In this document: positions 32,861 to 59,245 of the stretch, in pieces
Numbering within the stretch: the first letter of the stretch is position 1
Layout of the letters: each line of letters opens with the position of its first letter
DNA from: Haloarcula laminariae
GTDB lineage: Archaea; Halobacteriota; Halobacteria; Halobacteriales; Haloarculaceae
Direction of reading: 5' to 3'
Length of the DNA: 64,000 bases
Assembly (NCBI RefSeq): GCF_025457605.1
Contig: NZ_JAMZFY010000001.1
Location: forward strand, 1,984,001 to 2,048,000
Translations under genes and position numbers: made by a program
Notes under the pieces: model-generated
Told to the model about the DNA's origin: nothing
Seen by the model: the letters and a program-made list of their open reading frames with translations, nothing else
The model's database searches: none

Positions 32861-33160
32861 AGTGATGATTCGAATAGCCCGCTCAGAAAACATCGACCGG
32901 TTTGTCGATCATCGTTCCTCACGGATGATGGGAATAATCGGAAAATAGGTTTTCAAGTGTTCTATTAACCAGGCTACCGGTTTTTTGATTTTTCGGACTG
33001 TATTTGAATTGTGAGATCAATAGATGTAGAGTGTTACCTTGGTGATTTCTCGTATGTAGATTAGTGAGTGCGCGTAGCTTAGCGGATAGCAAATATCTGT
33101 TAATTTGCTATACGGCGAGGGTTTATAAGTAGCGAGTTTAGATAATTAGAATTATACGGA
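32861..33160. other. Intergenic region with a TATA box and a tRNA-like stretch
   Basis: 300 AT-rich bases. At about 33068-33110 the sequence gcgcgtagcttagcggatag has the A-box and D-arm look of a tRNA, followed by gcaaatatctgttaatttgc, a perfect six-base-pair stem around ctgtta. No matching T-arm or acceptor arm is present, so it is not a functional tRNA. The bases gtttataag near 33121-33129 form a TATA box about 33 bases before the transposase ATG. Confidence 0.4.
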
Positions 33161-39337: not shown

Positions 39338-41398
39338 TCAGCCGGTGATGTGCCGTGCAATTCTTTTGAGGCGGGACTCATTTTCCCATGGTTGACTCCC
39401 TAACCAAGCTTCGAAGGCCGCTGGTTCACGAACAATGAGGTCAAGCCCGCGACGATCGGGCCGACAGTACAATGGTACCGCACGGATGTACTCAGTGTAG
39501 TCGAACCGCATCTCCTTGTCAAACCGGATTTGAAGGCCTTCATCGACAGTGTTGACGGTCACGCGGTCAGATTCTAGTAACTCTTTCCACCGGTCACGGC
39601 CGACATCGTGCACCATTTCAGCAGGGACGGTTGGGAAATAGTCAGGGAGTGGCCGCCCGGCGTACGCGTACAGATTTTGCATAACTGTTCTGACTTCGAC
39701 AATCGGTGGGGCTTGCGTACCCGACGGTTGTAAACTCAGCTCGGTACGGAGGTACTGGAACGCGAACCAAGAGAACAACGGGTTGTCTGTCGCAATGAGG
39801 CGATTAACTTCTGCTTGTCCCTCCTGGTCGGTCGGGTCGAAGTGGACATCGAAATGAAGAAGCCGCATGCGTTCACGTTCGGGACCCTCAGGTCGCTTGT
39901 CGTTTGAAATGAAGCAAAACCTCGGAAAATGCCGACCTGGCTGCCAGTGATCGGTCCAGTAGTTCCGGAGCAAGCCGAACGAATTGACTCGATCAGCCTT
40001 GATATCGTCGACGACAAGCGGGAAGCACGTATCCGCGGCACGCAACGCGCGGAGTTTCCGGACGTCGACGCCGTCAGCGTCAACCGGACGGACAACACGC
40101 CCACGCGAGATAAGTGAGAGCGCGAATCTAGCGAACGTTCCCTTACCGGACGACGGGTCGCCGTGAATGTACAGCATCGGTAACGTCTTATCTAGTTCCT
40201 CTAACCCGGCCGACCGGTAGAACGCGGCGTGTCGCGTCGCAAACGGCGACCAGAACATCCAGAGTAATGCTTCGAACAGTGTCGCACGCAGTCCGTCCGG
40301 GTCGCTCGTTCGTCCGTATTCCGCGACGAGGTCAAAATACGACTCTAGGTGAGCAAGTGCATCGTCGACCTCGGCAGGATCGTCTGGCAACGGCTCAGTG
40401 AGGTCGTACACGCGACCGTCGGCGTGGAATCGCAGCTCTGGTTGTCTGTCAACAGTCCGGTACCGCATCGGTGGCACGCCGAACCGCCGAGCCGAAACCT
40501 CTTGAAACACACCAGGTGTGAGCGTCAGGGTGTCCTGTGTCACACTCCCTCCCGCCGACGTGAACTGCTTCGTGACCTCATCTCGTGCCGCCTTATCCAA
40601 GTGTGCGAGCGAAAGTGACACGCGGTGATCCGGGAGTCCGTCAACGGCCACAGCGTCTGCTGCCGAAGTACGCTTCTGACTCGACGAGCGGTCATCACCA
40701 ACCGCCACAGCAATCGGGTCCGGGTCAACACTCTCATCGATGTGGTCGGTGACTTCAGCAATGAACTCCGCTTCGGGTGTCTCCCCTGTTGTCCCGACAT
40801 CAAGCCATGTTTCGATGGCCTCCCGACGCTCACCGCCCGCGTCGATAGCCGCTGCTAAGTCCGCCATGAACGGCTCAGCGTACGCCTCTCGTATACCGTC
40901 GAAATACTCTGTCAACTCTTGATCAATCGCTGACCCTGTGGTCGTATCAAGCACGATCGCGGAGTTGTGCTGACGGCTCCACCCATTCTTAGAGAAATTC
41001 GCCGAGCCGATAATCCACGTTACTGTCTCGCCAGTCCTTGTGAGCCGGTAGAGCTTATCGTGAACATTCCGGTTCGGACACTCGAAAATGCTAACCCGGT
41101 CGTCACGGCGTAACTGCTCAAGCCGGTCAGCTAACTCAACACTGTCCTGCAGTTGCTCACGATACGATGTCGCATCACCCACAATCACTTCGAACTCAGC
41201 GTCAGGAGCGATGTCATCAATCGTTTCGATGAGATATTGCGGCGTTGTGCAGAACGTAACCACGCGCACCTCAAGGACATCTGTAAAAAATTGCTTGAAT
41301 GTCTGATAGCTCTTCAGTTCTACGAGCCGGAAAGAATCCTTTCGACTGACCATTTGAAAATCGATTTCCATACACACCTCTACGATCCCGGCAGACAT
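39338..41398 (-). CDS. PLD-family nuclease fused to a P-loop ATPase
   Basis: 686 aa. Residues about 35-180 are a PLD-type nuclease with one HKD motif: HDKLYRL then IIGSANFSKNGW. A single motif implies action as a dimer. A linker of about 200 residues follows. Residues about 395-560 are an ATPase domain with Walker A GDPSSGKGT, Walker B FPLVVDDI and a sensor-1-like FCFISNDKR, resembling phage/plasmid D5/MCM-like primase-helicases. A C-terminal extension follows. PLD nucleases are among the accessory nucleases reported with the HRAMP system encoded nearby. The role is predicted: energy-dependent nucleic-acid cleavage. Confidence 0.75.
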   Translation of the reverse strand: MSAGIVEVCMEIDFQMVSRKDSFRLVELKSYQTFKQFFTDVLEVRVVTFCTTPQYLIETIDDIAPDAEFEVIVGDATSYREQLQDSVELADRLEQLRRDDRVSIFECPNRNVHDKLYRLTRTGETVTWIIGSANFSKNGWSRQHNSAIVLDTTTGSAIDQELTEYFDGIREAYAEPFMADLAAAIDAGGERREAIETWLDVGTTGETPEAEFIAEVTDHIDESVDPDPIAVAVGDDRSSSQKRTSAADAVAVDGLPDHRVSLSLAHLDKAARDEVTKQFTSAGGSVTQDTLTLTPGVFQEVSARRFGVPPMRYRTVDRQPELRFHADGRVYDLTEPLPDDPAEVDDALAHLESYFDLVAEYGRTSDPDGLRATLFEALLWMFWSPFATRHAAFYRSAGLEELDKTLPMLYIHGDPSSGKGTFARFALSLISRGRVVRPVDADGVDVRKLRALRAADTCFPLVVDDIKADRVNSFGLLRNYWTDHWQPGRHFPRFCFISNDKRPEGPERERMRLLHFDVHFDPTDQEGQAEVNRLIATDNPLFSWFAFQYLRTELSLQPSGTQAPPIVEVRTVMQNLYAYAGRPLPDYFPTVPAEMVHDVGRDRWKELLESDRVTVNTVDEGLQIRFDKEMRFDYTEYIRAVPLYCRPDRRGLDLIVREPAAFEAWLGSQPWENESRLKRIARHITG

Positions 41399-43459: not shown

Positions 43460-44173
43460 TTACTTCTTTGCGAACCGAAGCGGATGCAGCGTTTCGACGG
43501 CCGTTTCACAGTCTCCTTTCCGCTGATGCCTAGCCCAACTGTATGCCGCTACATCAGCAACCTGTAGCCCCGCCGCGTCCTTGCTATCACGAGTGTCAAA
43601 TTCAATCGGCGGAACCTCATCCGCAGTACGATCCAACACAGTCGCTACCTTCTCCGCAGGGTTTTGCCACACCTCAGAATCCAGAACGACGCAGATCGAA
43701 TCAACCGTACTCAGATCTACGTGAGTCGTCTGAAATAACGGGTTTAGCACGCTGCACAACGCCAATGTCTTCAATGCTTGCACAGACTCATCGAAGTTCC
43801 CAATCACATCAGTCAACACGTCATTGCCGACATCCGGGTTCACCGCATGCACTGACAATCGAATCGGGTACGTAATCTCCCACGGTAACCGGGTCTGCTC
43901 AATCGTCGGGTCATCATACTCAACGTGATTCAAACACCCAACAGTCGTATTAACAACCGCAACCGGCAAAGCAGCTCCCTTCAGCTCAGACAACGTTCGA
44001 GACCCATGCAACGCACTCTCAGCGATCGTTTTCAATTCATCAACCGTATGCCGTAACACCTCATTCGCCCGGCCCCGCTCAGAGAGACACCACGTAGCCG
44101 CCACGACATAGTATGACCCTTTGGACGGATTCCCACTCTCATCAACGTGTACGAACAACGTCCGAGCCATCAA
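43460..44173 (-). CDS. DUF3800-family protein (RNase H-like fold)
   Basis: 237 aa. The N-terminal motif LFVHVDESGNPSKGSYYVVA (Asp11-Glu12) and the C-terminal DSKDAAGLQVADVAAYSWAR are the DUF3800 hallmarks. Their acidic residues form an RNase H-like metal site. A nuclease role is suspected for the family. The gene shares strand and neighbourhood with the HRAMP operon, from which it is separated by the HNH remnant. A second ATG lies one codon downstream. Confidence 0.7.
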   Translation of the reverse strand: MMARTLFVHVDESGNPSKGSYYVVAATWCLSERGRANEVLRHTVDELKTIAESALHGSRTLSELKGAALPVAVVNTTVGCLNHVEYDDPTIEQTRLPWEITYPIRLSVHAVNPDVGNDVLTDVIGNFDESVQALKTLALCSVLNPLFQTTHVDLSTVDSICVVLDSEVWQNPAEKVATVLDRTADEVPPIEFDTRDSKDAAGLQVADVAAYSWARHQRKGDCETAVETLHPLRFAKK

Positions 44174-44516: not shown

Positions 44517-45482
44517 TTACAGCGCTTCTTTTACCTCTTCTAACGCCTCTATAGTTCGCTGTAACTGCGTCTTCGCATCCGACCACGAAATGTCTTCATC
44601 TGGTTCGGCGGGCATGTCTTGACTTGCCTCGCCGCCATCGCTCAACACACCTGGTTCGCTATCACCACCGTGCTCAACCGCGTCGAGTCGCTGCTGCGTC
44701 TCGGCACCGGCGTCCTCCTCAGCAGCTGGAATCTCTGTTAGTGAGTCACCGCCCTCGCCATTGGGCGACGGCCGCCCGCCTCTGTCATCCAACGCATCTA
44801 GTGGGAATGCGTACGCTCTCGCGCGTTTTTCCTTGTGCCACGTTGTCCGTCCCACCACGCCAATCACATCAGCAACCTCGTCACGGCTACACCCGCGGTC
44901 AAGGGCCTGCCGGACGCGTTCATCTTCGGCGCGTTGCAGCAGAGTTTGCGGGTCATCAGGAATGCGGCCACGAGCAGAGTTAGAGATTTGCTCGACAAGC
45001 CCCCATTCCCCGGTGTCTGCGTCCTGATCGACGATCTGCTTGTCACGGCCCTCAACCGTGTTGTCGAGACCCATCAGTACCCACAGGCGTTCCCGGACGG
45101 CTGTCACGGAGAGATCCGGCGTGAGTTCGTCCACGATGTCACCAGTCCGGATCGGGCCGTGCTCGGCTAACACTTGGATGATCTCGGCGTCCTGCGGCAG
45201 CAACACCGTCAAGTCCGCTTCAGTCAGCTCAACCGGGACTTCGTCGCCCGATGGTTGATTGTGCAGCCAATTATGACAGCGCCTGCATGCTGCAGTCAGG
45301 TTCTGCAAGTCGTGCTCATCTATCTCGTCAGGATCACGCGTCGCATGATGGATGTGCAACGCCGCCACGCCACCCGCACCCGGACCGTCCCGACCACACC
45401 ACTTACAGCGATGCCCCGCCGCATCCAACACTTTCGATCGCGTCGCAGGGTCCACCGTCTCGTTCGACACATCCTCGGTCAT
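44517..45482 (-). CDS. HNH endonuclease with helix-turn-helix modules (HRAMP-associated)
   Basis: 321 aa. Residues 15-75 hold the HNH domain: CKWCGRDG, LHIHHATRDPDEIDEHDLQN, then CRRCHNWLHN. Residues 85-140 look like a winged helix (QVLAEHGPIRTGDIVDELTP), and residues 200-225 carry another HTH (CSRDEVADVIGVVGRTTWHK). The C-terminal 100 residues are acidic and end in a short coiled coil. It is the last gene in the direction of the HRAMP operon and a candidate for its DNA-cleaving partner. Confidence 0.75.
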   Translation of the reverse strand: MTEDVSNETVDPATRSKVLDAAGHRCKWCGRDGPGAGGVAALHIHHATRDPDEIDEHDLQNLTAACRRCHNWLHNQPSGDEVPVELTEADLTVLLPQDAEIIQVLAEHGPIRTGDIVDELTPDLSVTAVRERLWVLMGLDNTVEGRDKQIVDQDADTGEWGLVEQISNSARGRIPDDPQTLLQRAEDERVRQALDRGCSRDEVADVIGVVGRTTWHKEKRARAYAFPLDALDDRGGRPSPNGEGGDSLTEIPAAEEDAGAETQQRLDAVEHGGDSEPGVLSDGGEASQDMPAEPDEDISWSDAKTQLQRTIEALEEVKEAL

Positions 45483-45568
45483 GCTGCCACCACCACTTGG
45501 TTACTGCGTCGCCGCTGCTCGTTCGTCATCGATACGTCGCGCTTCTCACGTCGCGTGTTGCGTTGCAT
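45479..45568 (-). CDS. Possible Arg-rich leader peptide upstream of the HNH gene (29 aa)
   Basis: A tiny frame MQRNTRREKRDVSMTNEQRR ends in GCATGA so that its stop overlaps the HNH start codon. The tight overlap suggests translational coupling, but the peptide is very short and might be chance. Confidence 0.25.
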   Translation of the reverse strand: MQRNTRREKRDVSMTNEQRRRSNQVVVAA

Positions 45569-45687
45569 GGTCACTGTGTCAACCGCGTTTTTCTACCGCA
45601 GCTACCGCCCGCGTCTTCCTGGTGTATCGCTTCAATACCACCCACACCGCGCATTCGTCGACTCGATTCACTAGTGCTGCAGTCCTC

Positions 45688-46356
45688 TCACCCGTGACTC
45701 GTCGGCGTCAGCGATTTCAGCTGGAAATCAGAGCGACTACAGTACCGTTCAGCGACCCGGCCAAGCGCCGCCGTGCGAAGCACGTCCGCGACATTGTGCA
45801 GTACAACGTCAGTGAACCGCCCGTCCTCAAACGCTGTGACTGCTTCCGCGCTATCATCGAACGGGTCAAGCGCGGCGTGGTTCCCGTCGCACAGCAGGTT
45901 GTACGCTGCGACGAGTCCCGATCGTGACTGCCCGTCTACCGTCGTGTTGAACAGTTTCTTCACGACCGGGAACAGGTCCGCGTACGGCACGTCAACGAAC
46001 GGCCAGTCGAGGCCGTGCGCGGCGAATCGTGTCCTGAGGAACGGGACATCGAACCCGCCGTCCCACGTTTCACCGTTGAACGCTGTCAGCAACACGTCAT
46101 CATCTCGAAGCCGCATCGCCACGAACTCCGCGACCGCCTCTAACAAGCTGGCCTCCGACTCATGGACTGACACGATCACGTGTTCCTCAACGCGGTCCTG
46201 CACGTGTTCTTCCACGCCGTCACTGGTGCGCTCGGCCGTCTGGCAGAACACACGCACGCCCAACGGGAGACTGAACCCGACCACGGTCACGACATCATCG
46301 ACGTCGAACCCGGTCGTCTCAATATCGAACGCGACCTGCTCCAACACGTCGCTCAC
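45688..46356 (-). CDS. DnaQ-like 3'-5' exonuclease (HRAMP operon)
   Basis: 222 aa, RNase H-like fold. Exo I is VAFDIETTGFD (DxE), exo II is FNGETWDGGFDVPFLRTRF, and exo III is LHNVADVLRTAAL with the final Asp, indicating a DEDD-type active site. It overlaps the Cas5-like gene by ATGA and so belongs to the same transcript. It probably trims or degrades RNA or DNA for the HRAMP complex. Confidence 0.75.
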   Translation of the reverse strand: MSDVLEQVAFDIETTGFDVDDVVTVVGFSLPLGVRVFCQTAERTSDGVEEHVQDRVEEHVIVSVHESEASLLEAVAEFVAMRLRDDDVLLTAFNGETWDGGFDVPFLRTRFAAHGLDWPFVDVPYADLFPVVKKLFNTTVDGQSRSGLVAAYNLLCDGNHAALDPFDDSAEAVTAFEDGRFTDVVLHNVADVLRTAALGRVAERYCSRSDFQLKSLTPTSHG

Positions 46357-47330
46357 GATGTCGTCCCTTCGACACCGACGGCGCGTTCCGGGACACGGTC
46401 CTGACCTGCCGGTCGCAGTCGGAACTCCCCGAACCCGTACTTCGAGTGCGTCCCGACGCGTAACACGCCGTTCTGCGCTGTGCGAACCGCACCATCCCCC
46501 GTGAACTCGAAGACCTGCCCGTGATCCACCGTCTCCAGTACGTGCACTTCCTCACCGTTCACCAGCCGGGTTTCCCGGCGACGCAACTCACCGTCAGCAT
46601 CCCACCACCACGGGACGTTCTGCCCGTCCGCACCCGGGTACTCACTCTGCAAAACGTACGGCGATACGAGCTCTAAGTCGAGTTCCGTGTCCTCAACGCG
46701 GGAGTAGTCTAATTCATCCAATTCAACGAGCTGCGTGTCTTTCAGGGACAGCTCGCCGAGCCCGTAATTCCGGGCTGCACCGACCCGAAGCCCGTCCAAA
46801 ACGTCCTCGTTGAGCGGGAGGACATCATCGTCGCGCCCGGCGTGCAGATAGCACTGCAGGAACCATTGCACCGACCGCTTCGAATTCCGGACGTTCTCGG
46901 GCCGCCCAAACCAACACTTCGGGGCGTAGGCGAGCCGGTCACCGTGCCGCGTCACATCATGCACATTGTGCGCATCCCGCGGCCGGGAATCCAGTAACCA
47001 GCGTTGCGCAGCGTCTCTGAACAGGAACAAGTCCTCGTAATTCTCGACCTCCGGGAGCGACTTCCCAAGCACCCCGCCGTACCCGCTGTTAGAATGCGCG
47101 GACGGGTACTCGCCGTACTCGCCCGGGACGAACACCCCGTGACTTACCTGTAACTGCTTGCGAGCCCGGGCATCGACACGACGGGCGAGCGCATTGTACA
47201 GTGCGTTCCCGGTTACGTGATACGCGTGTCCCTGATAGTCCGACTCCAACTCGAACAGTACCTGCTGTACCTGTGTCACGACTTCACACCCCCTGCGCTT
47301 CCAGTGGAGAATATCGGGTTCACCGCGCAT
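46353..47330 (-). CDS. HRAMP Cas5-like RAMP protein
   Basis: 325 aa from ATG 47330 (MRGEPDIL), which overlaps the upstream gene by 11 bases; a GTG at 47279 is an alternative. It has an N-terminal strand-helix HAYHVTGNALYNALARRVDA and a Gly-rich loop GAARNYGLGELSLKD. A second loop near the C-terminus reads GTHSKYGFGEFRLRP. Glycine-rich loops after ferredoxin-like domains are the RAMP hallmark. In the published HRAMP module one subunit is a diverged Cas5, and this gene fits that place. It probably caps a guide-binding complex. Confidence 0.65.
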   Translation of the reverse strand: MRGEPDILHWKRRGCEVVTQVQQVLFELESDYQGHAYHVTGNALYNALARRVDARARKQLQVSHGVFVPGEYGEYPSAHSNSGYGGVLGKSLPEVENYEDLFLFRDAAQRWLLDSRPRDAHNVHDVTRHGDRLAYAPKCWFGRPENVRNSKRSVQWFLQCYLHAGRDDDVLPLNEDVLDGLRVGAARNYGLGELSLKDTQLVELDELDYSRVEDTELDLELVSPYVLQSEYPGADGQNVPWWWDADGELRRRETRLVNGEEVHVLETVDHGQVFEFTGDGAVRTAQNGVLRVGTHSKYGFGEFRLRPAGQDRVPERAVGVEGTTS

Positions 47331-48159
47331 CCCCGTCCCCGTACACTGCGACGTAATCCTCGATGTATCCGAGCGCCGTCGACCACGACCGGACACGCCG
47401 CAACTGCGCATCCAACCGCCGCCACCGCCGATCACCCTGATCGAACGGATGCTGCGACAACCTAGACCACGTATCCGCAAACGACCTGGCCGGACACGAC
47501 CCTAACGGAGCCGACGGCCGGTCACCCGGTTCCCCCGACACGTGCAGCGACATGACCGGCGACCACAGGACCGTTCGAAACGGCTCCACAACATCGGACC
47601 CCCGCGCCGCCGCAGCAGTCCAACCTTCCTCCGGCATCGCGCCTGACGGCGTCGCCACAAGATGCAAATCCGCGAAGTCATGCCCGGCCCGGTAATTATC
47701 CAGCAACGCCGCCACGAGCAGCACGTGGAACCTGAGCGAGGTGTACGGGTAGTACACCGACTCGTTGAACGCTGCCGCGACCTCGCTCGTCAACCACCGC
47801 GAATGCAGCACTTCGGGATCCGTCGATAACACCAACCAGTCCAGCGGTGCATCGTCCGACGCTCGAATCCGGTCAGATGCTACGGCCGTGCCACCCGTTA
47901 CGAGCGACAACCGGCGCGGCGACCGGTGATTCGCCACCGTTTCTTGCGGTGCGCCTTTCGGCCGCGACAGCCGAGCCGCGTCCCCATCCGCACCTAACCG
48001 CACTGGTTCGTTCACTCGCGCTCCACGAAACGTCTCTTGGGCCGCGTTATGTGACCGGCCGCGCAACTTATGCACATCATGCCGATACGCCGCGACCATT
48101 GGATCCACGTCTGACTCAGGCTCCTTGTGCGGCGACTCGAACGGCACGTCCGACGTCAC
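47320..48159 (-). CDS. HRAMP conserved protein of unknown function
   Basis: 279 aa. Contains APLDWLVLSTDPEVLHSRWL, ESVYYPYTSLRFHVLLVAAL and DLHLVATPSGAMPEEGWTAA; mixed alpha/beta with many Trp and Arg residues. No domain recognised. It overlaps the Cas7-like gene by ATGA and the Cas5-like gene by 11 bases, so it is part of the core operon. The described HRAMP module includes an uncharacterised conserved protein, and this is the best candidate. Confidence 0.6.
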   Translation of the reverse strand: MTSDVPFESPHKEPESDVDPMVAAYRHDVHKLRGRSHNAAQETFRGARVNEPVRLGADGDAARLSRPKGAPQETVANHRSPRRLSLVTGGTAVASDRIRASDDAPLDWLVLSTDPEVLHSRWLTSEVAAAFNESVYYPYTSLRFHVLLVAALLDNYRAGHDFADLHLVATPSGAMPEEGWTAAAARGSDVVEPFRTVLWSPVMSLHVSGEPGDRPSAPLGSCPARSFADTWSRLSQHPFDQGDRRWRRLDAQLRRVRSWSTALGYIEDYVAVYGDGDAR

Positions 48160-49097
48160 GCCCCATCACCACCATGGACCGGTAACTCCCCATCACGACG
48201 CGCTGTGCGGGCCTGAAGCGCCTCCACGAACTTGTCCCGGCACTGCGTTTGCCACAGCTCGTCTTTCCGCTCCATCTCGTTCGTCGGCGACTTCCGGCGG
48301 TCATACACGTTCGACACCTCATCCGCGGTGTAGAGTGGATTGAGGATCTCCGCGTCAACCATCCCGGCCCCGAAATTACGGGCCCCACCGAGTTGGAACG
48401 CATACTCGTCGCTATGGGTGTCTAAGAACGCGATCGCTTCCAGCAGGAGTCCCACGAACTCCGGTTTCGTCTCCCGAAGCGTGAGTTTCCACGTTCCCAC
48501 GAGATTCCCGACCACGTCCCGCGTCGAGTGTCGCAGCGGCTGCCCACCATCCTCCTCGTTCCTGGATCTGACTTGTGTGTGCAGCTGGCGATAGTGCGCC
48601 TCGGCTTCACCCCTCGTGACATCTACTTGGCTACGGACCGGCGAGAACGACACTGGACGCCGAATCAACTTCCCGGGATTGCCCTCGAACCCACCGAACA
48701 GATCGTACACGGTGCAGCCAGCATCCACGTCGTCCGTGCAACTGCCTTTCTCGTGATACCCGGAATCGAGATCTCGGTCGTACACGTCCTCTAGCCGGAA
48801 GTTCGCGTTCGACTCGCCCGGATGGCACGCTGATGCACCAGCCGCCTGTAGCACCGCCTCGCAGCCATGACGAACCCATCCAGATAACGCGAACGGGGAA
48901 ATCTGGCCCGCAATCTGGTTCTGTGGGTCGTCAGCCTCGTAACGGTCTGAAGATGCATGATGCCGATCGGTTACAATCCCATCCCCCGGAGCCAGCAGCC
49001 CGGCATCAAGGCCCACGTACAGATCAGGGAGCATCAGCTCCTCCTCGACAGGCAAGTCGAACTCAACCGGGAGATCAGACGCATCAAACTCGACCAT
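48156..49097 (-). CDS. HRAMP Cas7-like RAMP protein
   Basis: 313 aa. The start of the domain, QIAGQISPFALSGWVRHGCE, matches the G-x-S-x-[LI]-R-H signature of Cas7/Csm3/Csf2-type proteins. The glycine-rich loop GGARNFGAGMVDAEILNP lies near residues 247-264, and VSFSPVRSQVDVTRG resembles the Cas7 thumb region. Cas7 subunits form the guide-RNA backbone. No CRISPR array, Cas1 or Cas2 is visible in the window. Confidence 0.7.
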   Translation of the reverse strand: MVEFDASDLPVEFDLPVEEELMLPDLYVGLDAGLLAPGDGIVTDRHHASSDRYEADDPQNQIAGQISPFALSGWVRHGCEAVLQAAGASACHPGESNANFRLEDVYDRDLDSGYHEKGSCTDDVDAGCTVYDLFGGFEGNPGKLIRRPVSFSPVRSQVDVTRGEAEAHYRQLHTQVRSRNEEDGGQPLRHSTRDVVGNLVGTWKLTLRETKPEFVGLLLEAIAFLDTHSDEYAFQLGGARNFGAGMVDAEILNPLYTADEVSNVYDRRKSPTNEMERKDELWQTQCRDKFVEALQARTARRDGELPVHGGDGA

Positions 49098-49522
49098 TAC
49101 GCCTCACCACCCTCAGCCGCAACCAACTCACACGCTGAGCAACACGGCGAGGACCACTCTTCGGATTTAACACTAACCGCATCACGCGTGTGTGCCGGCG
49201 ACCACGCCACAACCTCAGGTGCCACAACCGTCACCCAATCACGCTGCAACCCCGTATCCACCACGCGACCAACCCGGCCCTCAACCACGACTTCACACAC
49301 GCCAAGCGTCGACAAAGAAGAAAGCGACGGCGGATGCCGCGGACACCGCAGTTGCCGAACCAACCATGGAGCGTGCGGACACTCGCGTGTCGCATACGCA
49401 ACCACCGCCGCGCCGTCCCGCAATCCCTGCTCAGAAACCTGACAAATTTTTGATGCTTGTGCTATGTCTTCAATCGATACAACAGCGTTAGTTTGATTCC
49501 GATTGGCTTGCTTAGTGTTCAT
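49097..49522 (-). CDS. First gene of the HRAMP operon, Cys-containing small protein
   Basis: 141 aa from MNTKQANRNQTN. The frame is open further upstream to 49633, but a TATA-like aagtatatg lies at about 49630-49638, inside that longer version. It has ECPHAPWLVRQLRCPRHPPS and a C-terminal SPCCSACELV, so a bound zinc is possible. Its TAA overlaps the Cas7-like ATG as TAATG. Function unknown. Confidence 0.5.
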   Translation of the reverse strand: MNTKQANRNQTNAVVSIEDIAQASKICQVSEQGLRDGAAVVAYATRECPHAPWLVRQLRCPRHPPSLSSLSTLGVCEVVVEGRVGRVVDTGLQRDWVTVVAPEVVAWSPAHTRDAVSVKSEEWSSPCCSACELVAAEGGEA

Positions 49523-49626
49523 GGGTTCTTGCCTGAACAGTAGAACCCGGCTCGCGTGTGCAACCACGCGGGCATTCTCTCGAATACTCCCAAGGAGCCA
49601 AGCTCTACTACTCCATACAACTGCAT

Positions 49627-49640
49627 TACACATATACTTT
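49627..49640 (-). promoter_or_regulatory. Putative promoter of the HRAMP operon
   Basis: On the minus strand the bases read gtaaagtatatgtg, an archaeal TATA-like element about 110 bases upstream of the first operon ATG. The implied leader carries a small inverted repeat (cgcgtggttgcacacgcg). Confidence 0.4.
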
Positions 49641-49717
49641 ACGACTTGTAAAGGATATCCGTTAACTAAGGTTCAATGGGTGGCTAATAAGGACTAGGCC
49701 AGCAAATGTGCTCTACA

Positions 49718-49930
49718 ATGCCTCTCAAAGTCGATGAGAATACGAAAAAAGTGCTAAATGAATTTGTTCAGAAGGGCAATCTAACGACTGGTGCGTTAGT
49801 CGAATTCACTGAGCTATCGCGTCCGACTGTGACGAAGAGGCTGGACCGGCTACACGCTGCCGGATGCATCGAATATCTTCATGAACCAACTGCACTCTGG
49901 AAATTGCTCAAAGACCCTCGTTCAGAGTGA
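49718..49930 (+). CDS. Small winged-helix regulator (70 aa)
   Basis: From MPLKVDENTKKVLNEF; an ATG 12 bases earlier is possible. Residues 10-60 form a winged helix: KVLNEFVQKGNLTTGALVEF, ELSRPTVTKRLDRLHAAGCI, then EYLHEPTALWKL. It lies between the HRAMP and BREX operons, divergent from HRAMP and convergent with brxL, so it might control HRAMP. Confidence 0.65.
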   Translation: MPLKVDENTKKVLNEFVQKGNLTTGALVEFTELSRPTVTKRLDRLHAAGCIEYLHEPTALWKLLKDPRSE

Positions 49931-49986: not shown

Positions 49987-52014
49987 TCATTCTAAATCGA
50001 TAGCTTTGCTCGCTGCATCCAGCGGATTCGTGTAGAAGATAAGTTCGAGTTGGTCGAGAAGCTCATCAGGTATCTTGGCGAAGTCGTCTTTATTTTTCGC
50101 AGGAAGAAGTACCTTCTTAGCACCAGAATCTGCTGCTAACTGTAGTTTATCGACGAGTGAGCTTACGGAGACGAGTTCACCCATGAGACTCATTGCGCCT
50201 AAGACGACAACTTGTGATCGGACTGGTCTATCAAGGATACCTGAAACGATGCCCACGAGAATGCCCACACTAGTCTCGCCACCTTCGCTGGCGTCAGATG
50301 GATTGAGGACCTGCATGTTGATGTCGTAGTCATCGAGTGTCTCGTCGCGCCGGAGTTCGCGCATATTCGCTTGGAGATAATCACACGCGGTCTCGAACGA
50401 GTCTTTCATCTTACTTCCAGGAGTCCCGGAGATGTTCGTTTTTCCAGAGCCGGGAAGGGCTTGTGTCTCTATGCGGAAGGGCGCGTGACGTCCTTCGCTT
50501 TCTCCAATAGTGTACACCGTTCCTGCTTTCTGTGTTCCAGGCGGGATCAGCGTCTCGTCAGCTTCCTCGGGTACACTGACGTAGATCTCTTCTCTGGTTT
50601 CTAAGTCCAAGTACGAGAACTCGACAGCTCGATACTCCATCCCGCCCATGCGTTTGAGCTGTTCTTTGACGCGCCGACGCCCCTCCATTGCAAATTCGAG
50701 GTATTCTCGGAGTTCGTCTTTGGTGTACTCGCCATGGGGGTGAAGCATCTTCAGGAGGCCTGAGACGGTTTTCCTGACTGCCTTTTCGTCGCGCTGGTTG
50801 AGATGGTCCCCGAAGGCGAATTCTTCGTTGATGGCATCACCATAGGATTCTTTTCGGAGTTCTCGGACGAATTCGGCGAAGTAGTCGACGATGAAGCCGA
50901 ACTGGTCGCCGAAGAATTCGGAACGCATCTTCGGCACTTCCCACCCCGGAAGGTAGTAGTGGAATCGGTCGATGAGTGCGAGGTCTTGCATCTCTTCGGG
51001 GAAGGGTTGAAAGAGATGGGAACTCTTGAGAACGCCTTCGACGTCAAGGTCGATGTTGCCGACGTAGACCATCGATGCTTGCGCGGTCAGCTCTTCGGTA
51101 CCGCGTGAGAAGCTCCCGCTCTCCATGTAGTCTTTGAGCATCTGGACAGCCTCGGAGTCAGTGAAGCGAAGACCCCCGACTTCGTCGAAAGCGACAACGT
51201 CCCATCGCCCGACCAAGCCGATTCGTCCAGTATTGAGGTTGAGAAAGAGCTTTGCGACAGTCGTCTTTCCGCCGGAGATGAGTATTGAGTGAGGGCTGAT
51301 CTCGCGGTAGAGGTAGCTTTTCCCGGTGCCACGGGGCCCGAGCTCGACGTAGTTATAATTGGATTCGACAAGCGGGATACAACGGGCGAGGAACAGCAGC
51401 TTTTCCCGGTCACTGAACGCGGTCGGGTCGTAGCCGACGCTCTGGAGGAGCAGATCCATCCATTCGTCGCGCGTGAACTCTCGCCGACGGTCTTTGAGTT
51501 GGTCTAAGTCGAGGTTGGATACCTGGATTGGTTTGAACGAATCAATGCCGAAGAGGCTTTTCGGGCCGTTAGCGTTGTCAGGGAGGTACTCTAAGTCGAT
51601 GATTGCCCACACACCGCCACCGAGGAGCTTCGGGTGTTTGCTGACGAGGTGCTCGCTGATTTCGACGTCATTGAGTCCGAGGTTGACGAACGAGCCGATG
51701 TACGCGTCCTGCTGTTCGTCGAGTTTGACGGTGACCTTATCGATGACACGGTAGCGCCCTCGCTCGCGGATTTCGCTCTTAACGAATTCGGCTTCATCAG
51801 GGCGAACGTAGTGTTTTGAGAGGATCTCTTTGACCTTGTCGAGACCCTCTTCTATAGACCCCTCATCATCGGTCGCGCAGTACTGGCCGACGAGATATTC
51901 GAGAACATAGGTCGGGACATTGACGCCGGATTTGATGTCCTGAACGAGGTCCTTCCGGACCACGCGCCCGGGAAAGACGTCGAGGGCTTTCTGGTCGACG
52001 TCCTCAGTTGTCAT
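49987..52014 (-). CDS. brxL: BrxL, Lon-like AAA+ protein of BREX
   Basis: 675 aa. The AAA+ part has Walker A GPRGTGKS (226-233) and Walker B VVAFDEVG (273-280). The C-terminal Lon-type domain (about 515-670) keeps a Ser-Lys dyad: Ser582 in EGGETSVGIL and Lys623 in SLVDKLQLAADSGAKKVLLP. BrxL is the defining effector-side gene of type 1 BREX, forming ring-shaped assemblies on DNA. It follows pglZ after about 120 bases on the same strand. Confidence 0.9.
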   Translation of the reverse strand: MTTEDVDQKALDVFPGRVVRKDLVQDIKSGVNVPTYVLEYLVGQYCATDDEGSIEEGLDKVKEILSKHYVRPDEAEFVKSEIRERGRYRVIDKVTVKLDEQQDAYIGSFVNLGLNDVEISEHLVSKHPKLLGGGVWAIIDLEYLPDNANGPKSLFGIDSFKPIQVSNLDLDQLKDRRREFTRDEWMDLLLQSVGYDPTAFSDREKLLFLARCIPLVESNYNYVELGPRGTGKSYLYREISPHSILISGGKTTVAKLFLNLNTGRIGLVGRWDVVAFDEVGGLRFTDSEAVQMLKDYMESGSFSRGTEELTAQASMVYVGNIDLDVEGVLKSSHLFQPFPEEMQDLALIDRFHYYLPGWEVPKMRSEFFGDQFGFIVDYFAEFVRELRKESYGDAINEEFAFGDHLNQRDEKAVRKTVSGLLKMLHPHGEYTKDELREYLEFAMEGRRRVKEQLKRMGGMEYRAVEFSYLDLETREEIYVSVPEEADETLIPPGTQKAGTVYTIGESEGRHAPFRIETQALPGSGKTNISGTPGSKMKDSFETACDYLQANMRELRRDETLDDYDINMQVLNPSDASEGGETSVGILVGIVSGILDRPVRSQVVVLGAMSLMGELVSVSSLVDKLQLAADSGAKKVLLPAKNKDDFAKIPDELLDQLELIFYTNPLDAASKAIDLE

Positions 52015-52135
52015 TGACTATCCGAAGTGTAGCCGGAGGCATATTGGTGTCGGTGATGAGAAGCGAGAGAGAGAGAGGCGGGTCTGGTAAGTCTCGGGAA
52101 CAGTGCTACACTTTCGGGAGATGCCGTTGTTTAAC

Positions 52136-54562
52136 CTATACGTCGAATCCCATATCGTCGTCACCGAAGAGGAGGTCAAGGGCGACTGTTTCTTTGGATA
52201 TTGTTTCTCGCGTGTCCAAGTCAATTACCTCGAACTGAACGGTGTTTTCGCCCGAAATCGCGCCCTGTTTGAGCCTGATACGAGTGCTGTTTGTTCCCGG
52301 ATTTATTTCTATCGTAGAGGGGTCTGCGACTTGCTCACCGTCAATATTGGCACGGATTTCTAACGTCGGGGATTTGTCGAACGAGACTTGTTCGCTTTTG
52401 GCTTCAACCTCGACGCTGATGATGGAGTTCGTAATCGGATCAGGAACTGTAACATCGTAGTTGATTGTGGCACTCTCTTCCAGCTCCCCTGTCGTTACCG
52501 TCAGGCACGGTACCAGCAGCTCTTGTAGCGATATCCCGCCGTGGAAGTACTGCATGTTCCCGCCTTGGGCTTTGAAACACGCGACGCTGCGTGGGAACAG
52601 GAGTTTGAGATCCGGCGCAGTGATGCCGAGTTCTGCGAGACCGTCTGAATCTACCTGGATATACTCGTCAGTATCCACGAGTGCGGTACCGCTGTCGATT
52701 GCAGCGAATCGGCGTTTCACGATGTTAGCGAGGTCCGGTGATTCGACTTTCAGTTCGTCAGTCAGTCTGTCGGTGAACAGGAAACCGTGGTCACTCGTGA
52801 TGACGAACTTCGTGTAGCCAGCTTGTTTCAACCGCTGCACGGTGCGTTCGACGTCGTCGACGTGCGATGCGACTTGACTGAACGCTGTCTCGGCATCGAG
52901 ACTCTCGCCAAGCTTGTCGATCGTTCCAGAGTAGATTACCCGTGGAACGGGATCCGACTCGGACAGCTCCTCAAGCGGGGTACTGTTTACCTCGTCCATG
53001 TCGACGACCTCGAAGCCGGCAGCACTGAGACGGTCAACGCGGTCAGATTTCCCGCTCATCTCCTCGCCACCACTGGTCACTACCAAGTCATCATCGTCGA
53101 GTGAGAGCCCGAGTTCGCCGGGGAGGTGGGCAGCCATGCCGACCTCTGTGATCGACGGCAGCGCAGCGCTGACAGCGTCGAGACTTTGCTCGAAGTCAGT
53201 TCGGTGCTCCAGGTTCTGCTTGATTGATTCCGCCAGTTCGTACCGCAGGCCGTCGCAGATGATGATTGCAGTGCCGTCATCAAGGTCCGCAAATTCCTCG
53301 TAGAAGGACGTTTGTGGAGTACCGAGCGTGGGATTGTCGCCGAGTGTTTCGGCGAGTGGTCGGTTCACGCTCTGGAGGAAGGACATGTAGTGTTTGGCGA
53401 CCCGGTCTTTCACGACGGTTTCCTGTGGATACGGCTCGGTGGTTTGGAGCGTCGCCTGGATGTAGCTTCGGTACGCAGCGTCGATTTGCCACCAGCCGTC
53501 GCTGTCAGTATACTCGGTAGCCAGGTCCTCAGAGGAGAGCGTCTTCGCGTTGTCGGCATCGATAGCCCCGATTTGCCTGAGCGTTTCGATAGCGAGGATG
53601 GGGACGGACCAGTCGACGAGATCCTCCTGACTCCAGAAGCTATCCTCACGACGTTTGACTGTCTGGTGGAGGTCGTTTGCGATGTCCGGGAGATCGACGT
53701 AGGTTCCTTCGGCAAGGCGCTCCATCACGAGCCGGATGAGGCCCCTATCGATACCCTTGAACGCAGTCGCATCCCAATGTGCTCGGCCAGAGTCGACGAC
53801 AGCCGCTGCGAGGTCATAGTCCTCTTCGATGGTTTGTGCGAGGCGGATGAACTCCGTCGGGGCGTACTTTTGCCACTCGTCACAGAATTTCGCCGCAGCG
53901 GTAGTATCGTCGGCGGCGAGTTCATCATACCGGCTTGTGGGCGCGCGGTTGGCAACCTCGCCGAAGAGGAGTTGCGTGGCTATCTCTTTGGGGTCGAGTC
54001 CAGCGTCGATACCGTACTCCTCTCGGAGGTGAGCATCCCACGCATCGTCCATCGCGTTGTCTTCGATTTGCTCGCGGTACAGTTCAGGCGCGGCGAGATA
54101 GGAGCGGAGCCAGTGGTCGGGATCTGGTCCGGCTGTTTCGAAGAGCACACAGAAGAAGGCCATACGACGATTCTTTGCGTTCTCTCCCCAATCCTCATAC
54201 GCGTCGGGGATTTCGTCCTCGTGCTCAACGAGGAACTGTGTCGCTGGTGTACCCTCGATATCTCGGTCGACGCGGTACTGCTTCCCGAGTGAGTGGACGT
54301 CACGGAACCATTCTGCATCGTTGCGGGATTCGGGGATGTAGAAAAGCCAGTTCTGGCCGTAGTTCGGGTCCTCATCCCGGAGTCGCTTCTTCAGCTTCAG
54401 GTAACTTCCGTCATACCGTGCGAGAGTGATATCGTCAAGTTCGGCTTCGACCTCGTCGAGGACACCTTTGTACTTCTCTTGTGAATCATACCAGACCCAC
54501 ACAGGATGCCGGTCGAACTTCTGTCGAAGTTCCGTGATAATGCTATCCGCGAGATCTCCCAT
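52136..54562 (-). CDS. pglZ: PglZ, alkaline-phosphatase-fold BREX protein
   Basis: 808 aa. The PglZ domain occupies about residues 410-660: TAIIICDGLRYELAESIKQN (metal-binding Asp), LPSITEVGMAAHLPGEL and KFVITSDHGFLFTD (Asp-His near residue 590). The N-terminal 400 residues are helical, as in BREX type 1 PglZ, and the C-terminal domain is beta-rich. It is needed for BREX immunity and its phosphodiesterase-type fold is conserved. GC content (62% in one line counted) is clearly above the neighbouring pglX body. Confidence 0.9.
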   Translation of the reverse strand: MGDLADSIITELRQKFDRHPVWVWYDSQEKYKGVLDEVEAELDDITLARYDGSYLKLKKRLRDEDPNYGQNWLFYIPESRNDAEWFRDVHSLGKQYRVDRDIEGTPATQFLVEHEDEIPDAYEDWGENAKNRRMAFFCVLFETAGPDPDHWLRSYLAAPELYREQIEDNAMDDAWDAHLREEYGIDAGLDPKEIATQLLFGEVANRAPTSRYDELAADDTTAAAKFCDEWQKYAPTEFIRLAQTIEEDYDLAAAVVDSGRAHWDATAFKGIDRGLIRLVMERLAEGTYVDLPDIANDLHQTVKRREDSFWSQEDLVDWSVPILAIETLRQIGAIDADNAKTLSSEDLATEYTDSDGWWQIDAAYRSYIQATLQTTEPYPQETVVKDRVAKHYMSFLQSVNRPLAETLGDNPTLGTPQTSFYEEFADLDDGTAIIICDGLRYELAESIKQNLEHRTDFEQSLDAVSAALPSITEVGMAAHLPGELGLSLDDDDLVVTSGGEEMSGKSDRVDRLSAAGFEVVDMDEVNSTPLEELSESDPVPRVIYSGTIDKLGESLDAETAFSQVASHVDDVERTVQRLKQAGYTKFVITSDHGFLFTDRLTDELKVESPDLANIVKRRFAAIDSGTALVDTDEYIQVDSDGLAELGITAPDLKLLFPRSVACFKAQGGNMQYFHGGISLQELLVPCLTVTTGELEESATINYDVTVPDPITNSIISVEVEAKSEQVSFDKSPTLEIRANIDGEQVADPSTIEINPGTNSTRIRLKQGAISGENTVQFEVIDLDTRETISKETVALDLLFGDDDMGFDV

Positions 54563-54603
54563 TGTAGGCTACATCCGGGTGGGGGATGATTGTTGTTTCG
54601 GGA

Positions 54604-54633
54604 ACCACTCTCGTTCAGTAACCGATGAGTGGT
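54604..54633. promoter_or_regulatory. Inverted repeat in the pglZ / TBP-like divergent promoter
   Basis: The arms accactc (54604-54610) and gagtggt (54627-54633) are perfect complements separated by 16 bases. They lie only a few bases before the ATG of the TBP-like gene at 54638, in the 66- to 75-base divergent region with pglZ. A dimeric operator is a reasonable reading. Confidence 0.45.
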
Positions 54634-54637
54634 AGAC

Positions 54638-55273
54638 ATGCAAAAGACTCAGGTCTTTACTCGGCAAACTATCGTCAACGTGACCGAGATAGACAGAACA
54701 GAACATCAGCTTAAGACTGATTCCGGCGTGGAATACTCACCCCACTCTATGATGCATAAAGCCATTGTACAAATGGATCCTACAAAACTAGAGATGCTTG
54801 ATAGATTTGAAGAGAAAGTTAATGGTTACAAATATACTCCTTCAGATTCTAATGTTCGAGTCATTATAACTGGTCGTGACTGGTCACAAAAGAGGCTTTT
54901 CGTATATGGCTGTACATCGTCAGAAGAAGCAGAAGGTTATATTAACGAGATTGTCAGTTCCGTTTGTGAGATAGGCCATGATGCTGAACTCATTGAGGGA
55001 CCAAAAATCACCAATATTGCTGTAAGTGGTGATTTAGGGACACCACTCCAACTAGAAGACCTCTCAGTTGATAACGGTGACAGCGTATTTGAGGTCGAAT
55101 ATGAGCCGGAACAATTTCCAGCCGCCATTGTTCGGGTAAAGGAAATTTCGGTGACCTTTATGTTATATTCTACAGGCAAGTTTGTGATTCAAGGACTTCG
55201 TCGGAGAGAAGATATTGAGCCCGCGATTCGTCGCATCCAACTATTCTTGGATAACTATGCGAATGAAGTATAG
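54638..55273 (+). CDS. Divergent TATA-binding protein (TBP-like) inside the BREX locus
   Basis: 211 aa from ATG 54638; a GTG at 54629 could add three residues. Residues 122-208 match the second TBP repeat: ITNIAVSGDLGTPLQLEDL, EYEPEQFPAAIVRVKEISVT, FMLYSTGKFVIQG and a REDIEPAIRRIQLFL helix. Residues 70-118 (NVRVIITG, RLFVYGCTSSEEAEGYINEI) align with the last part of the first repeat. The remainder is diverged, including an N-terminal insertion. Ordinary haloarchaeal TBP is about 186 aa. It is divergent from pglZ and convergent with pglX. It may act as a dedicated initiation factor or repressor for BREX. Confidence 0.75.
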   Translation: MQKTQVFTRQTIVNVTEIDRTEHQLKTDSGVEYSPHSMMHKAIVQMDPTKLEMLDRFEEKVNGYKYTPSDSNVRVIITGRDWSQKRLFVYGCTSSEEAEGYINEIVSSVCEIGHDAELIEGPKITNIAVSGDLGTPLQLEDLSVDNGDSVFEVEYEPEQFPAAIVRVKEISVTFMLYSTGKFVIQGLRRREDIEPAIRRIQLFLDNYANEV

Positions 55274-55322
55274 TTATAAGATATTCTACTAACCGAAACT
55301 CAATAATTTAATGATTCGTAAG

Positions 55323-58300
55323 TCAGCGTGAGTAACTTGACTTCAGTTTTGGGAGGCCAGTTTCTAGAACCTCATATTGGTCCCACTGTTTGATATTCTC
55401 CCAAATACCTTCATCGGCGTCAACTGAAACATTATCATCAATCATTTCATCAATTATCTCTCGGAACTCTTTCACGTCATTCAGACTCTCCTGAACAGAC
55501 TCTTTACGATTCAGAAGCTTCTTGTCTGGATTATCGCTGCTAGTCCGTTTTCTCAACGAATCGAGCTCATTTTTGAGTGAGTCTATATGCGGGTCAAGAT
55601 ACTGACCGCGAAGCTTGGGGAGCGTATTCGAGTCAATTTTATGATAATACACGAAGCAACTAAAAGCGCCATTAGGACTTTCGAGTTGCCAATAAATCGG
55701 AATCCGCTGGCCTCGGCGGCGATATTCTTTGCAATGGTGATATCTAAAGAATGATTCACGTAACCATTCCCCGACCGAGGTCCCTAGAATACCTTCTATG
55801 GAAGATTGGATAGATTGACTATCCATGAATAACGTATCAAGACAGTCCTGGATACAAGCATCAACGTTTTCGTCGGCATTCTCATCAAATGTGATTATAC
55901 CATCGTCAACACTTTCTATATCTTGATCAGTACTCCAATGACCAACAGCGGTGCCAAGACAATATGAGAGAATTCGACCAGCAGTTTTTTCCAGCCTATC
56001 CTGATCATATGTTTCCTCTGTATATCGACCTTCAGCGATAGTTATTGGTGAGATTTCTAGATCTTCTGCCGCCTCACGGAGGTCGGTAGGACTATCAGCT
56101 ATATCTGAAAGTAAACGCTGATATTCTTCTGAAGCAAGTTCTCTCTCAGGAATCTCATCGCTCGATAATTCCAAGCCAGTCTCATATTCTAGATTCGTTA
56201 TGATTGGATAATCAGCGAGGTTCTTCGGTAAATTTCTAGATAGGCGCTCTCGGTGCTCACTTGGAATTGAATATGCATCATAAATGAGTGGATCAATTAG
56301 TCCATGTATCAAACCAACTTCTGCATTTAATTTGTCCTCGTAATACAATAGTCCTTTCACACCCTCCTGAGTGCAATCGATGAACTTTTTCTGATCAAAC
56401 TCATCACTCGTTTCATCTAAGGATATTAATTTCTCTCGGGAGTCCATTGCGCGTTCAACAAGTCTTTCTACCTCAGCCTGTTGCTCTGGTTCGGGATTAA
56501 TTGGGAGACGTTTTATATCTCCGACCTCGAAATTCAGGGACGGATTGATTCCATTCAAAAGGAATCTAACTAAAGTGGAATTACCATATCCGAGTAAATA
56601 TTCATCACTGATTTCGGGAGAATATACAAAATGGGACTTATGATAAAAAATCATATTATCGGGTTTTGAGCGAGCTACTGCGTAATTGCCAAATCCTCGG
56701 AAGGAAACCCCTTTCCGGAAATAGTAGTCAGAGTTGCGAATATAGCTCCCATCGTATTCTTTCACTTCCTCCCCACTGTTTTTCCATAAGAGATAATCAC
56801 GCTGTGTATCATAATACGGTTGCGAGGAACCGCTTTTTTGATATGGAACGTAATTTCCACCTAATTCATCCTGATTAACTTCCCAATGCTTTCGCACGAA
56901 TCGATCATCATCTCCCGTAGCTAATCCTTGCTTTACTTCGACCGAGTCTTCAATTGCAGGATATTCAGAGAAAAGGTTAAGTATAGAATCACCGAACCAG
57001 TATAGAAATGGCTGTCGTCCAATTGATAGAAAATCGTTCGGATTGACAGTATATACATCCTCAGTCGTGTTATTCTCACGAAGTTGTGATGTCAGAGCAT
57101 TGAGCCCATCAATTTTTTTCTCGTGAGTGTCATATTTATCCTGTTCATGGGTCATCCTATAAAATCGGGAATTTTCAACATCTGTAGGATCACTATTCCG
57201 TAGGAGGAACGAGATGGTAAAAGGCCGATCTTTCATTGAGAAGCTATATCCTGATAGATGGGCCCCTTCTAAGAATTGATGATTTTGCAACAGAATTCGT
57301 CGTAACTTTCGGTAACTGTAGGAAAACATATAGTTCTCGGGCGTAACTAATGAAGCATACCCGTCAGATTTAGCAAATTCCCAAGACCGTTGGATGAATG
57401 CTGCGTATATATCTCGGGTTCCTGCATAGCCGTCTTTTATATATTGTTTGAGATTATCCCCCATTTTCCCACTACCCAAATAAGGCGGGTTAGCTACCAC
57501 AACATCATAATCACGAATAAGCACATCAAGAAGCTCCACTGATTTCGAAACTTCTTCAGCGAACATTTCGTCAACTGGATTATTCTCATTAAGAGCAGCA
57601 CGAGCAATTTCGCGGGTGTTCTCAAGCAAACGCTCTTTTACCGACTCCCATGATTCAGATTTTTCATCAGTAAAAGAGACTACAGATGATTGTTTCTCTA
57701 GCCCACCACTCTGTGTGAATTTTGATTGCCCCTCAGCCTTGAGATCATCACGATATTGCTCAATAATATCTTCTATGTGCTGTTCCACCCGAACAAGACT
57801 TCCCCACTCACGAATATGTTCGAAGCTAGTCCAGATCTGATCGAGGATCTCTTTTTCAAGCTCTGAGTCCGTTCGATCAAGAACCTCTTGTTTTTTTGTA
57901 CCGTTAATCAGTACTGCATCAGCAGACGTTATATTGATTTGTTCAATACTAACATCTGGAGATTTTGTTTTTGCTTTTAGATACAAGGATAGTGCGGCAA
58001 TTTGTGCTGCGCCTGAATCTATATCAACCCCATATAAGTTATTTCGGAGAATTTCTCGTGGAATATGTCTTTCAAGAACCTCACCCTCTTCAAGATACAT
58101 TTGGTAGAGAACATCGAAAGCATAGAACAGCATGTGACCGCTGCCACACGCAGGATCAAGAACAGTTATGTCTTCAACCGACTTTGTTTCCCGGTCAATT
58201 AGTGACTCTTCTACCGGAGCGAGATAGAAGCAGTTGTCTTCGTCGTCGATATTCGTCCGCTCGCCCTGCATTTCGAGCCAGGTGCGGCCGAGTGAGTTGT

Positions 58301-59054: not shown

Positions 59055-59245
59055 TGATATTAGGAGTGTGTTCCGCGCCGCAGTACGGGCGGGACAGCTG
59101 AGGGCTGTACCGTGGTTCCCACCCGTGATGACATACCATCGGCAAGTAGTTGATGAGTCTTATACTTGTGGGGTCAGCGGGTCTGCTGGCTTGCGGTCGG
59201 GTGTCTCCGTAGCAGACTGACTAAAATCGAACTCGGCTGTCTGAA
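59055..59245. other. Gap between brxC and pglX with a possible promoter
   Basis: 191 bases. On the minus strand acaagtataagactc near 59156-59170 is a TATA-like element about 105 bases before the pglX ATG, so pglX could have its own promoter. No gene supported here. Confidence 0.4.

Follow-up and report, generated by a model that had tools for sequence, protein, structure and literature searches.

HRAMP was reportedly described by Makarova et al. in 2019 as a haloarchaeal RAMP module. Systems of this kind are described as combining diverged Cas7 and Cas5 proteins that resemble type III proteins with HNH or other nucleases and as lacking an array of clustered regularly interspaced short palindromic repeats (CRISPR) (PMC8730458, PMC12669027). 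Here, we analyzed a stretch of 64,000 nucleotides (nt) from Haloarcula laminariae (contig NZ_JAMZFY010000001.1, positions 1,984,001 to 2,048,000, hereafter the window), in which six open reading frames (ORFs) all run in the same direction on the minus strand from position 49522 to 44517. The original prediction had assigned these six co-directional genes to HRAMP, and both the reading frames and the assignment are borne out: gene set, gene order, restriction to haloarchaea, HNH or alternative nucleases and lack of an array match the published accounts (PMC8730458, PMC12669027), and the locus is a member of this already known kind. The claimed absence of an array and of cas1 was likewise upheld, as the 64-kb window contains no regularly spaced repeats and the genome assembly gave no cas1 match reaching E 0.001 (cas2 was not searched separately). 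The analysis supports the operon, its protein families, a reduced-Cas10 fold and a conserved noncoding 16-mer, located within the HNH leader in sense orientation, that resembles the 5' handle of a CRISPR RNA (crRNA). That the complex encoded by this haloarchaeal HRAMP defence operon binds the HNH leader as a pseudo-crRNA is the reading we prefer, with evenly balanced confidence.

The handle-like element, motif B (ATTGAAGCGATACACCA), lies at 45620 to 45636 on the minus strand, in the noncoding gap between the genes for a DEDD exonuclease and an HNH nuclease, and its core on the mRNA strand is the 16-nt sequence TTGAAGC-GATANNCCA. The gap spans 205 bases (45483-45687), as had been noted before. 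About 60 HRAMP copies were compared overall, and the 22 loci bearing an HNH gene have a gap of about 154 to 291 nt in front of it, also when no DEDD gene is present. Alignment of these pre-HNH gaps gave a single conserved block, ATTGAAGCGATACACCA, with unconserved flanks. The logo derived from 34 distinct loci has sharp edges, with an invariant TTGAAG followed by C (33 of 34), GATA (in which one base varied once), two free positions and CCA. Of positions +1 to +9, just two, +5 and +6, are free to vary, and conservation does not extend past +9; position -8 is variable and -1 is C, once T. A reading of motif B as coding sequence was rejected, because codons are frozen within the 16-mer and conservation is absent beyond it. 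In the window, motif B is the sole match when up to three mismatches are allowed, while 7 of 100 shuffled sequences contained one match. Across 391 Halobacteria genomes the pattern TTGAAGCGATANNCCA gave 33 matches as opposed to five for the reversed pattern. Twenty-nine matches outside the own genome were fetched, 27 of which proved to be HRAMP loci; one of the other two is coding and the other belongs to a CRISPR array (L060), whose repeat GTTTCAGACGTACCAAGCTGGTGTTGAAGC supplied the match through its handle. In viral contigs the number of motif B matches was estimated to be about at chance level.

The first 7 nt of the 16-nt core equal the 5' handle that type I-B repeats of haloarchaea give to their crRNAs, and the first 8 nt of motif B are identical to the handle of the array in the same genome. 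This array, which ends in ATTGAAGC, accompanies a type I-B cas locus with cas6 and cas7 on another contig (C5, ~20-31 kb, L078). Taken with the lack of a cas1 match in the assembly, the C5 array may no longer acquire spacers. Repeats of fourteen CRISPR arrays from haloarchaea, nearly all of them HRAMP genomes, have TTGAAG-C/T or a variant differing by one base at their end, and near the type I-B cas genes of HRAMP genomes most arrays end in TTGAAGC, two in TTGAAGT and one in TCGAAGC. Position 6 is the base flipped out by class 1 complexes. In Haloferax, the final 8 nt of the repeat form the start of the mature crRNA. The first of them is dispensable, the 7-nt handle is essential, position -1 tolerates an exchange of C for U or A, and each sixth spacer base is unpaired (PMC4326828). 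The 8-nt handle is the binding site of Cas5 (PMC9458426). The variation pattern of motif B agrees with the Haloferax handle tolerances, with -8 free and -1 being C or once T. The original prediction had called the source of the guide unknown; with motif B in front of the HNH gene there is now a predicted candidate.

Since part of the 34-locus set had been found by the pattern itself, we used as unbiased set the 22 loci that were fetched via Cas7 or lie in the own genome. Motif B is present in 21 of the 22 loci with HNH and in none of 8 loci without it (Fisher 1.5e-6, a value that is only indicative because related loci are not fully independent). The single HNH locus devoid of motif B, L022, also has a shortened HNH gene, and in five loci without HNH another predicted nuclease-like gene follows straight after the DEDD gene, again with no motif B. 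The tie to HNH is also compatible with motif B serving the HNH gene as a promoter element or DNA operator to which the helix-turn-helix (HTH) region of the HNH protein or another factor binds, in which case the handle likeness would be coincidental. HTH-like regions are present in the HNH protein (a weak Xre-like Pfam match, 0.0053), and motif B is an AT-richer part of a GC-rich gap. However, the motif is not palindromic and always occurs on the sense strand, it lies at a variable distance (50 to 192 nt) from the HNH start with no conserved TATA box between, and the match spans exactly the functional 7-nt handle with agreement at the tolerated positions. We regard a function as operator or promoter element as possible but rather doubtful.

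Several observations speak against recognition of the HNH leader as a pseudo-crRNA. Motif B tracks the HNH gene and is missing from loci in which a different nuclease follows; this would also fit an HNH-specific operator. Locus L050 keeps motif B although another gene without an HNH match follows. A repeat-like hairpin upstream of motif B was not found above the level of shuffled sequences, and cis targets of the GATANNCCA seed occur at the loci at chance level. Finally, the match to the 7-mer handle could be a coincidence, the chance of which we estimate at roughly 1 in 1000.

Two further explanations concern the source of a guide. In the first, motif B would be a true hard-wired guide, that is, a processed RNA with handle and fixed seed (GATANNCCA) that sends HRAMP or, as in the case of CreA, a resident I-B Cascade to one conserved target. 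This agrees with the identity of the handle, with the conservation of +1 to +4 and +7 to +9 around the free positions +5 and +6, and with the existence of CreA-type guides with degenerate repeats in haloarchaea (PMC9458426), whereas conservation ends at +9, no consistent cis target was found, HRAMP variants without HNH also lack motif B, and half of the host genomes are without I-B Cas7 and Cas6. We consider this explanation unlikely. In the second, HRAMP would take its guides in trans from the type I-B array of the genome, and the array of the own genome indeed has the identical handle. Among 29 genomes with motif B, however, 14 have both Csh2 (Cas7b) and Cas6 over the cut-off and 15 have neither, so that supply in trans appears very improbable. 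The same distribution indicates that a resident I-B complex is not the sole reason for which motif B is retained. On the simplest reading, HRAMP's own Cas5/Cas7 would recognize motif B.

For the preferred pseudo-crRNA reading we propose the following course of events. The core of the system would be a type III-derived effector consisting of a Csm3-like Cas7, a Cmr3-like Cas5 and a reduced Cas10 with an HD-like motif and no cyclase motif. The Cas5/Cas7 complex may recognize TTGAAGC-GATANNCCA in the HNH mRNA in the manner of a crRNA 5' handle. Docking in resting cells would assemble the complex on this pseudo-crRNA while the HNH nuclease is kept low or held in the complex, and complex assembly would thereby be coupled to HNH output. 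Invader RNA or DNA might then engage or break the complex, such that HNH is freed and, together with the DEDD exonuclease and perhaps an HD activity, destroys nucleic acid. A bolder reading, which strikes us as fairly unlikely, is that the HNH leader would encode just one pseudo-crRNA, fixed in the genome and composed of the handle TTGAAGC and the seed GATANNCCA, with which a minimal Cas10-Cas7-Cas5 complex is loaded. If it were true, HRAMP would not be guide-less but array-less, a hard-wired RNA-guided or RNA-gated system.

The large subunit in this scheme is the 279-aa protein encoded at 47320 to 48159 on the minus strand. The original prediction had described it as a conserved unknown; conserved it is, and by its fold match it is most likely a reduced Cas10. 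AlphaFold2 prediction on 24 family members gave a confident model with a predicted local distance difference test score (pLDDT) of 84 and a predicted template modelling score of 0.87. VIA-align matched the model to Csm1 (6o7b) with Z 12.4 over 237 residues at a root mean square deviation of 4.3, in an alignment that covers residues 16-279 of the model and 1-555 of Csm1. The VIA rows shown, with Z from 6.5 to 12.4, are all Csm1 or Cmr2, that is, Cas10 proteins, although the absence of other folds from this list is not evidence against them. Foldseek against the PDB likewise gave a list dominated by Csm1 and Cmr2. In the family, R26, H27, D28, H30, K31, H37, D58 and D60 vary little or not at all; they include an HD-like motif (H27 D28 H30 K31 H37 D58), whereas no GGDD motif is visible in the family alignment. 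Judged by the ends of the alignment range, H27-D28 would fall about at the HD motif of Csm1, and the 279-aa protein may have HD catalytic activity.

On the other side of the balance, Foldseek supports the Cas10 match with weak E-values of no less than 0.2, and the 279-aa family gave no significant result in a profile comparison with twelve archaeal Csm1 sequences. These two points, along with the VIA note on middling Z values, would be in line with a protein unrelated to Cas10 whose structural match reflects a common alpha/beta arrangement. Such a coincidence seems quite improbable to us given that every VIA row shown is Csm1 or Cmr2, that 237 of 279 residues are aligned, that the alignment start would place H27-D28 near the Csm1 HD motif and that HDxHK, H37 and D58 are invariant or near-invariant. 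Overall, we take the 279-aa protein to be very probably a reduced Cas10.

RAMP similarity had been predicted for two further proteins and was found by profile searches for both. The 313-aa protein (48156 to 49097, minus strand) is Cas7-like: several members of its family match PADLOC Csm3 models with a best E of 3.5e-5 (0.011 for the window copy), and a GGARNFGxG loop is invariant. The second RAMP, probably encoded at 46353 to 47279 on the minus strand, is Cas5-like, with matches to PADLOC Cmr3 models at 1.2e-4 for the window copy and down to 3.4e-8 for relatives. Sequence-profile searches of the PDB gave no match for the Cas7, the 279-aa or the HNH family, and the AlphaFold model of the Cas7-like protein (pLDDT 44) was not used.

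The operon begins with the gene for a small, Cys-containing, Zn-ribbon-like protein of 141 aa (49097 to 49522, minus strand), which has no Pfam match. Only the HNH protein and the DEDD exonuclease matched Pfam, leaving four of the six operon proteins without a match. Of the gene overlaps claimed originally, the TAATG junction between the small Cys gene and the 313-aa gene stands (one-base overlap), while the two junctions given as ATGA, the four-base overlap between the 313-aa and 279-aa genes and the junction between the Cas5-like and DEDD genes, both read GTGA. The Cas5-like reading frame extends to an ATG at 47330 (325 aa). As the second RAMP of relatives begins with M-T-x-I-Q-Q, the window gene probably starts at GTG 47279 and encodes 309 aa; a gap of about 40 bases would then follow the 279-aa gene, and the claimed 11-base overlap is doubtful.

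The two nucleases agree with their earlier assignment. The DEDD/DnaQ-type exonuclease of the RNase H superfamily (222 aa, 45688 to 46356, minus strand) matches Pfam RNase_H_2 at 3.3e-6 and PADLOC DEDDh at 1.5e-4. The HNH nuclease, a protein of 321 aa with its HTH-like regions at the C-terminus (44517 to 45482, minus strand), matches Pfam HNH at 4.3e-7, and its catalytic and Zn residues are invariant in 18 copies. In HNH-less loci, the conserved gene that follows DEDD (L009:14286-15014, L012:14214-14954, L014:14259-14999, L019:13712-14461, L029:5347-6063) reads like a PD-(D/E)xK nuclease; the one tested, that of L012, had no match in Pfam or PADLOC.

A TATA-like promoter element, a AAGTTTATA-type box, precedes the first gene (49630 to 49643, minus strand); it was derived as a consensus from the aligned upstream regions of about 30 loci, and variable inverted repeats lie on both sides of the box in relatives. 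Directly before the first start codon there is a two-hairpin 5' leader (49522 to 49573, minus strand). The pairing of its helix 1 is kept by compensatory changes, one pair occurring as GC 12 times, as AU nine times and as CG eight times, with none broken. A covariance model found this leader in many genomes, also in front of unrelated small haloarchaeal genes; it is therefore generic to haloarchaea, and its hairpins were ruled out as the HRAMP guide RNA. In Rfam, the window copy had no match near threshold, and the leader with its covarying stems possibly represents an undescribed haloarchaeal family. In L122-L137 and L140 (e.g. L124:3143-3279, L123:904-1048) the leader ends in AACCCATG, followed by M..N..GQE. 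Several of the small genes behind the leader carry SWIM-like Cys motifs, and the leader sometimes occurs in tandem.

A second element, motif A (ATTGAAGACATAGCACAA, 49457 to 49474, minus strand), resides inside the first gene, where it reads ATTGAAGANATANNNCAA and is located 48 nt after the start; it shares TTGAAG NN ATA NNN CA with motif B. Among its codons in 30 loci, GAA occurs in all 30, ATA in 29 and ATT in 26, while other Ile codons near motif A are mixed (20 ATT, 12 ATC, 11 ATA) and those of Cas7 genes are mostly ATC. Motif A may offer the same complex a further binding site, for which the evidence is weaker than for motif B, given that this part of the gene is translated as well.

When genome contigs were scanned with the Cas7-like protein, 33 loci emerged, all but one haloarchaeal and most with the same gene order; convincing relatives are confined to haloarchaea, the single marginal bacterial match (L041) being unsupported. 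The order Zn, Cas7, 279 aa, Cas5, DEDD, HNH is common to about 20 relatives across many haloarchaeal genera, whose core proteins are roughly 45-73% identical. The same genome contains a second complete HRAMP operon (L006, contig C1, ~1.168-1.173 Mb) with proteins 42-69% identical and its own motif B, TTGAAGCGATATCCCA. Because the order recurs across genera and in this second copy, the arrangement is far beyond chance. A decayed HRAMP remnant was seen at L139:935-1400, where the leader and the N-terminal part of the first gene are joined directly to the Cas7 end. In L009, L012, L014, L015, L019, L028 and L029 a small coupled ORF with TLETGC repeats lies between the 279-aa gene and Cas5; it has a TGATG start in several loci and is absent from the window. 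The TTGAAACGGGGTGTG repeats in this gap had been considered as a mini CRISPR-like array and were discarded as such, their spacings all being multiples of three, as in a translationally coupled TLETGC-repeat ORF.

In the window, the BREX genes BrxL, PglZ, PglX and BrxC adjoin the operon on the same strand (49987-62890), and the other flank carries a tyrosine recombinase (integrase) and a DDE transposase (31364-34939) where the GC content drops, probably the edge of an island. With BREX genes on one side and integrase and transposase on the other, the HRAMP operon sits in a defence island. A divergent gene (49706 to 49930, plus strand) encodes a small winged-helix protein of the MarR/HTH_24-like type (Pfam HTH_24, E 1.3e-8), a candidate repressor of the operon. 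Also nearby are genes for a protein with an NgoFVII-like PLD nuclease domain (39338-41398) and a DUF3800 protein (43460-44173).

Compared with type III CRISPR-Cas (Csm/Cmr), the locus shares a Csm3-like Cas7, a Cmr3-like Cas5 and a large subunit of Cas10-like fold, but it lacks array, Cas6 and GGDD cyclase motif and carries DEDD and HNH nucleases in addition. Type VII CRISPR-Cas (Cas14 with a Cas10 remnant, PMC12669027) likewise descends from type III by reduction and has Cas5 and Cas7 next to what is left of Cas10, whereas its nuclease is of the beta-CASP type and arrays are present. ARAMP of Asgard archaea (PMC8730458) is an array-less RAMP module too, but most ARAMPs encode Cas1, unlike the window locus. 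The CRISPR-regulated toxin-antitoxin system CreTA (PMC9458426) has in common with our locus an ectopic crRNA-handle-like sequence beside a potentially toxic gene in haloarchaea. Motif B differs in that neither a pseudo-repeat pair nor a promoter match was found for it, a comparison of the CreTA-like spacer part with the promoter of the linked gene having given no consistent seed match in the loci; furthermore, the linked gene encodes a protein nuclease, and motif B persists in genomes without I-B Cas7 and Cas6. In its gene set the window locus does not differ from HRAMP itself, which likewise has Cas7 and Cas5 in diverged form together with a conserved unknown protein and nucleases of the HNH or another type, lacks array and cas1 and occurs in Haloarchaea. 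The reduced-Cas10 assignment and motif B are new with respect to the reviews (PMC8730458, PMC12669027), although priority is uncertain, as the 2019 description may already mention either. HRAMP has so far been a CRISPR derivative without a known RNA; motif B provides a specific and mutable candidate for the bound RNA, the reduced-Cas10 assignment explains components of the module, and together they render a vague prediction experimentally testable in tractable haloarchaea.

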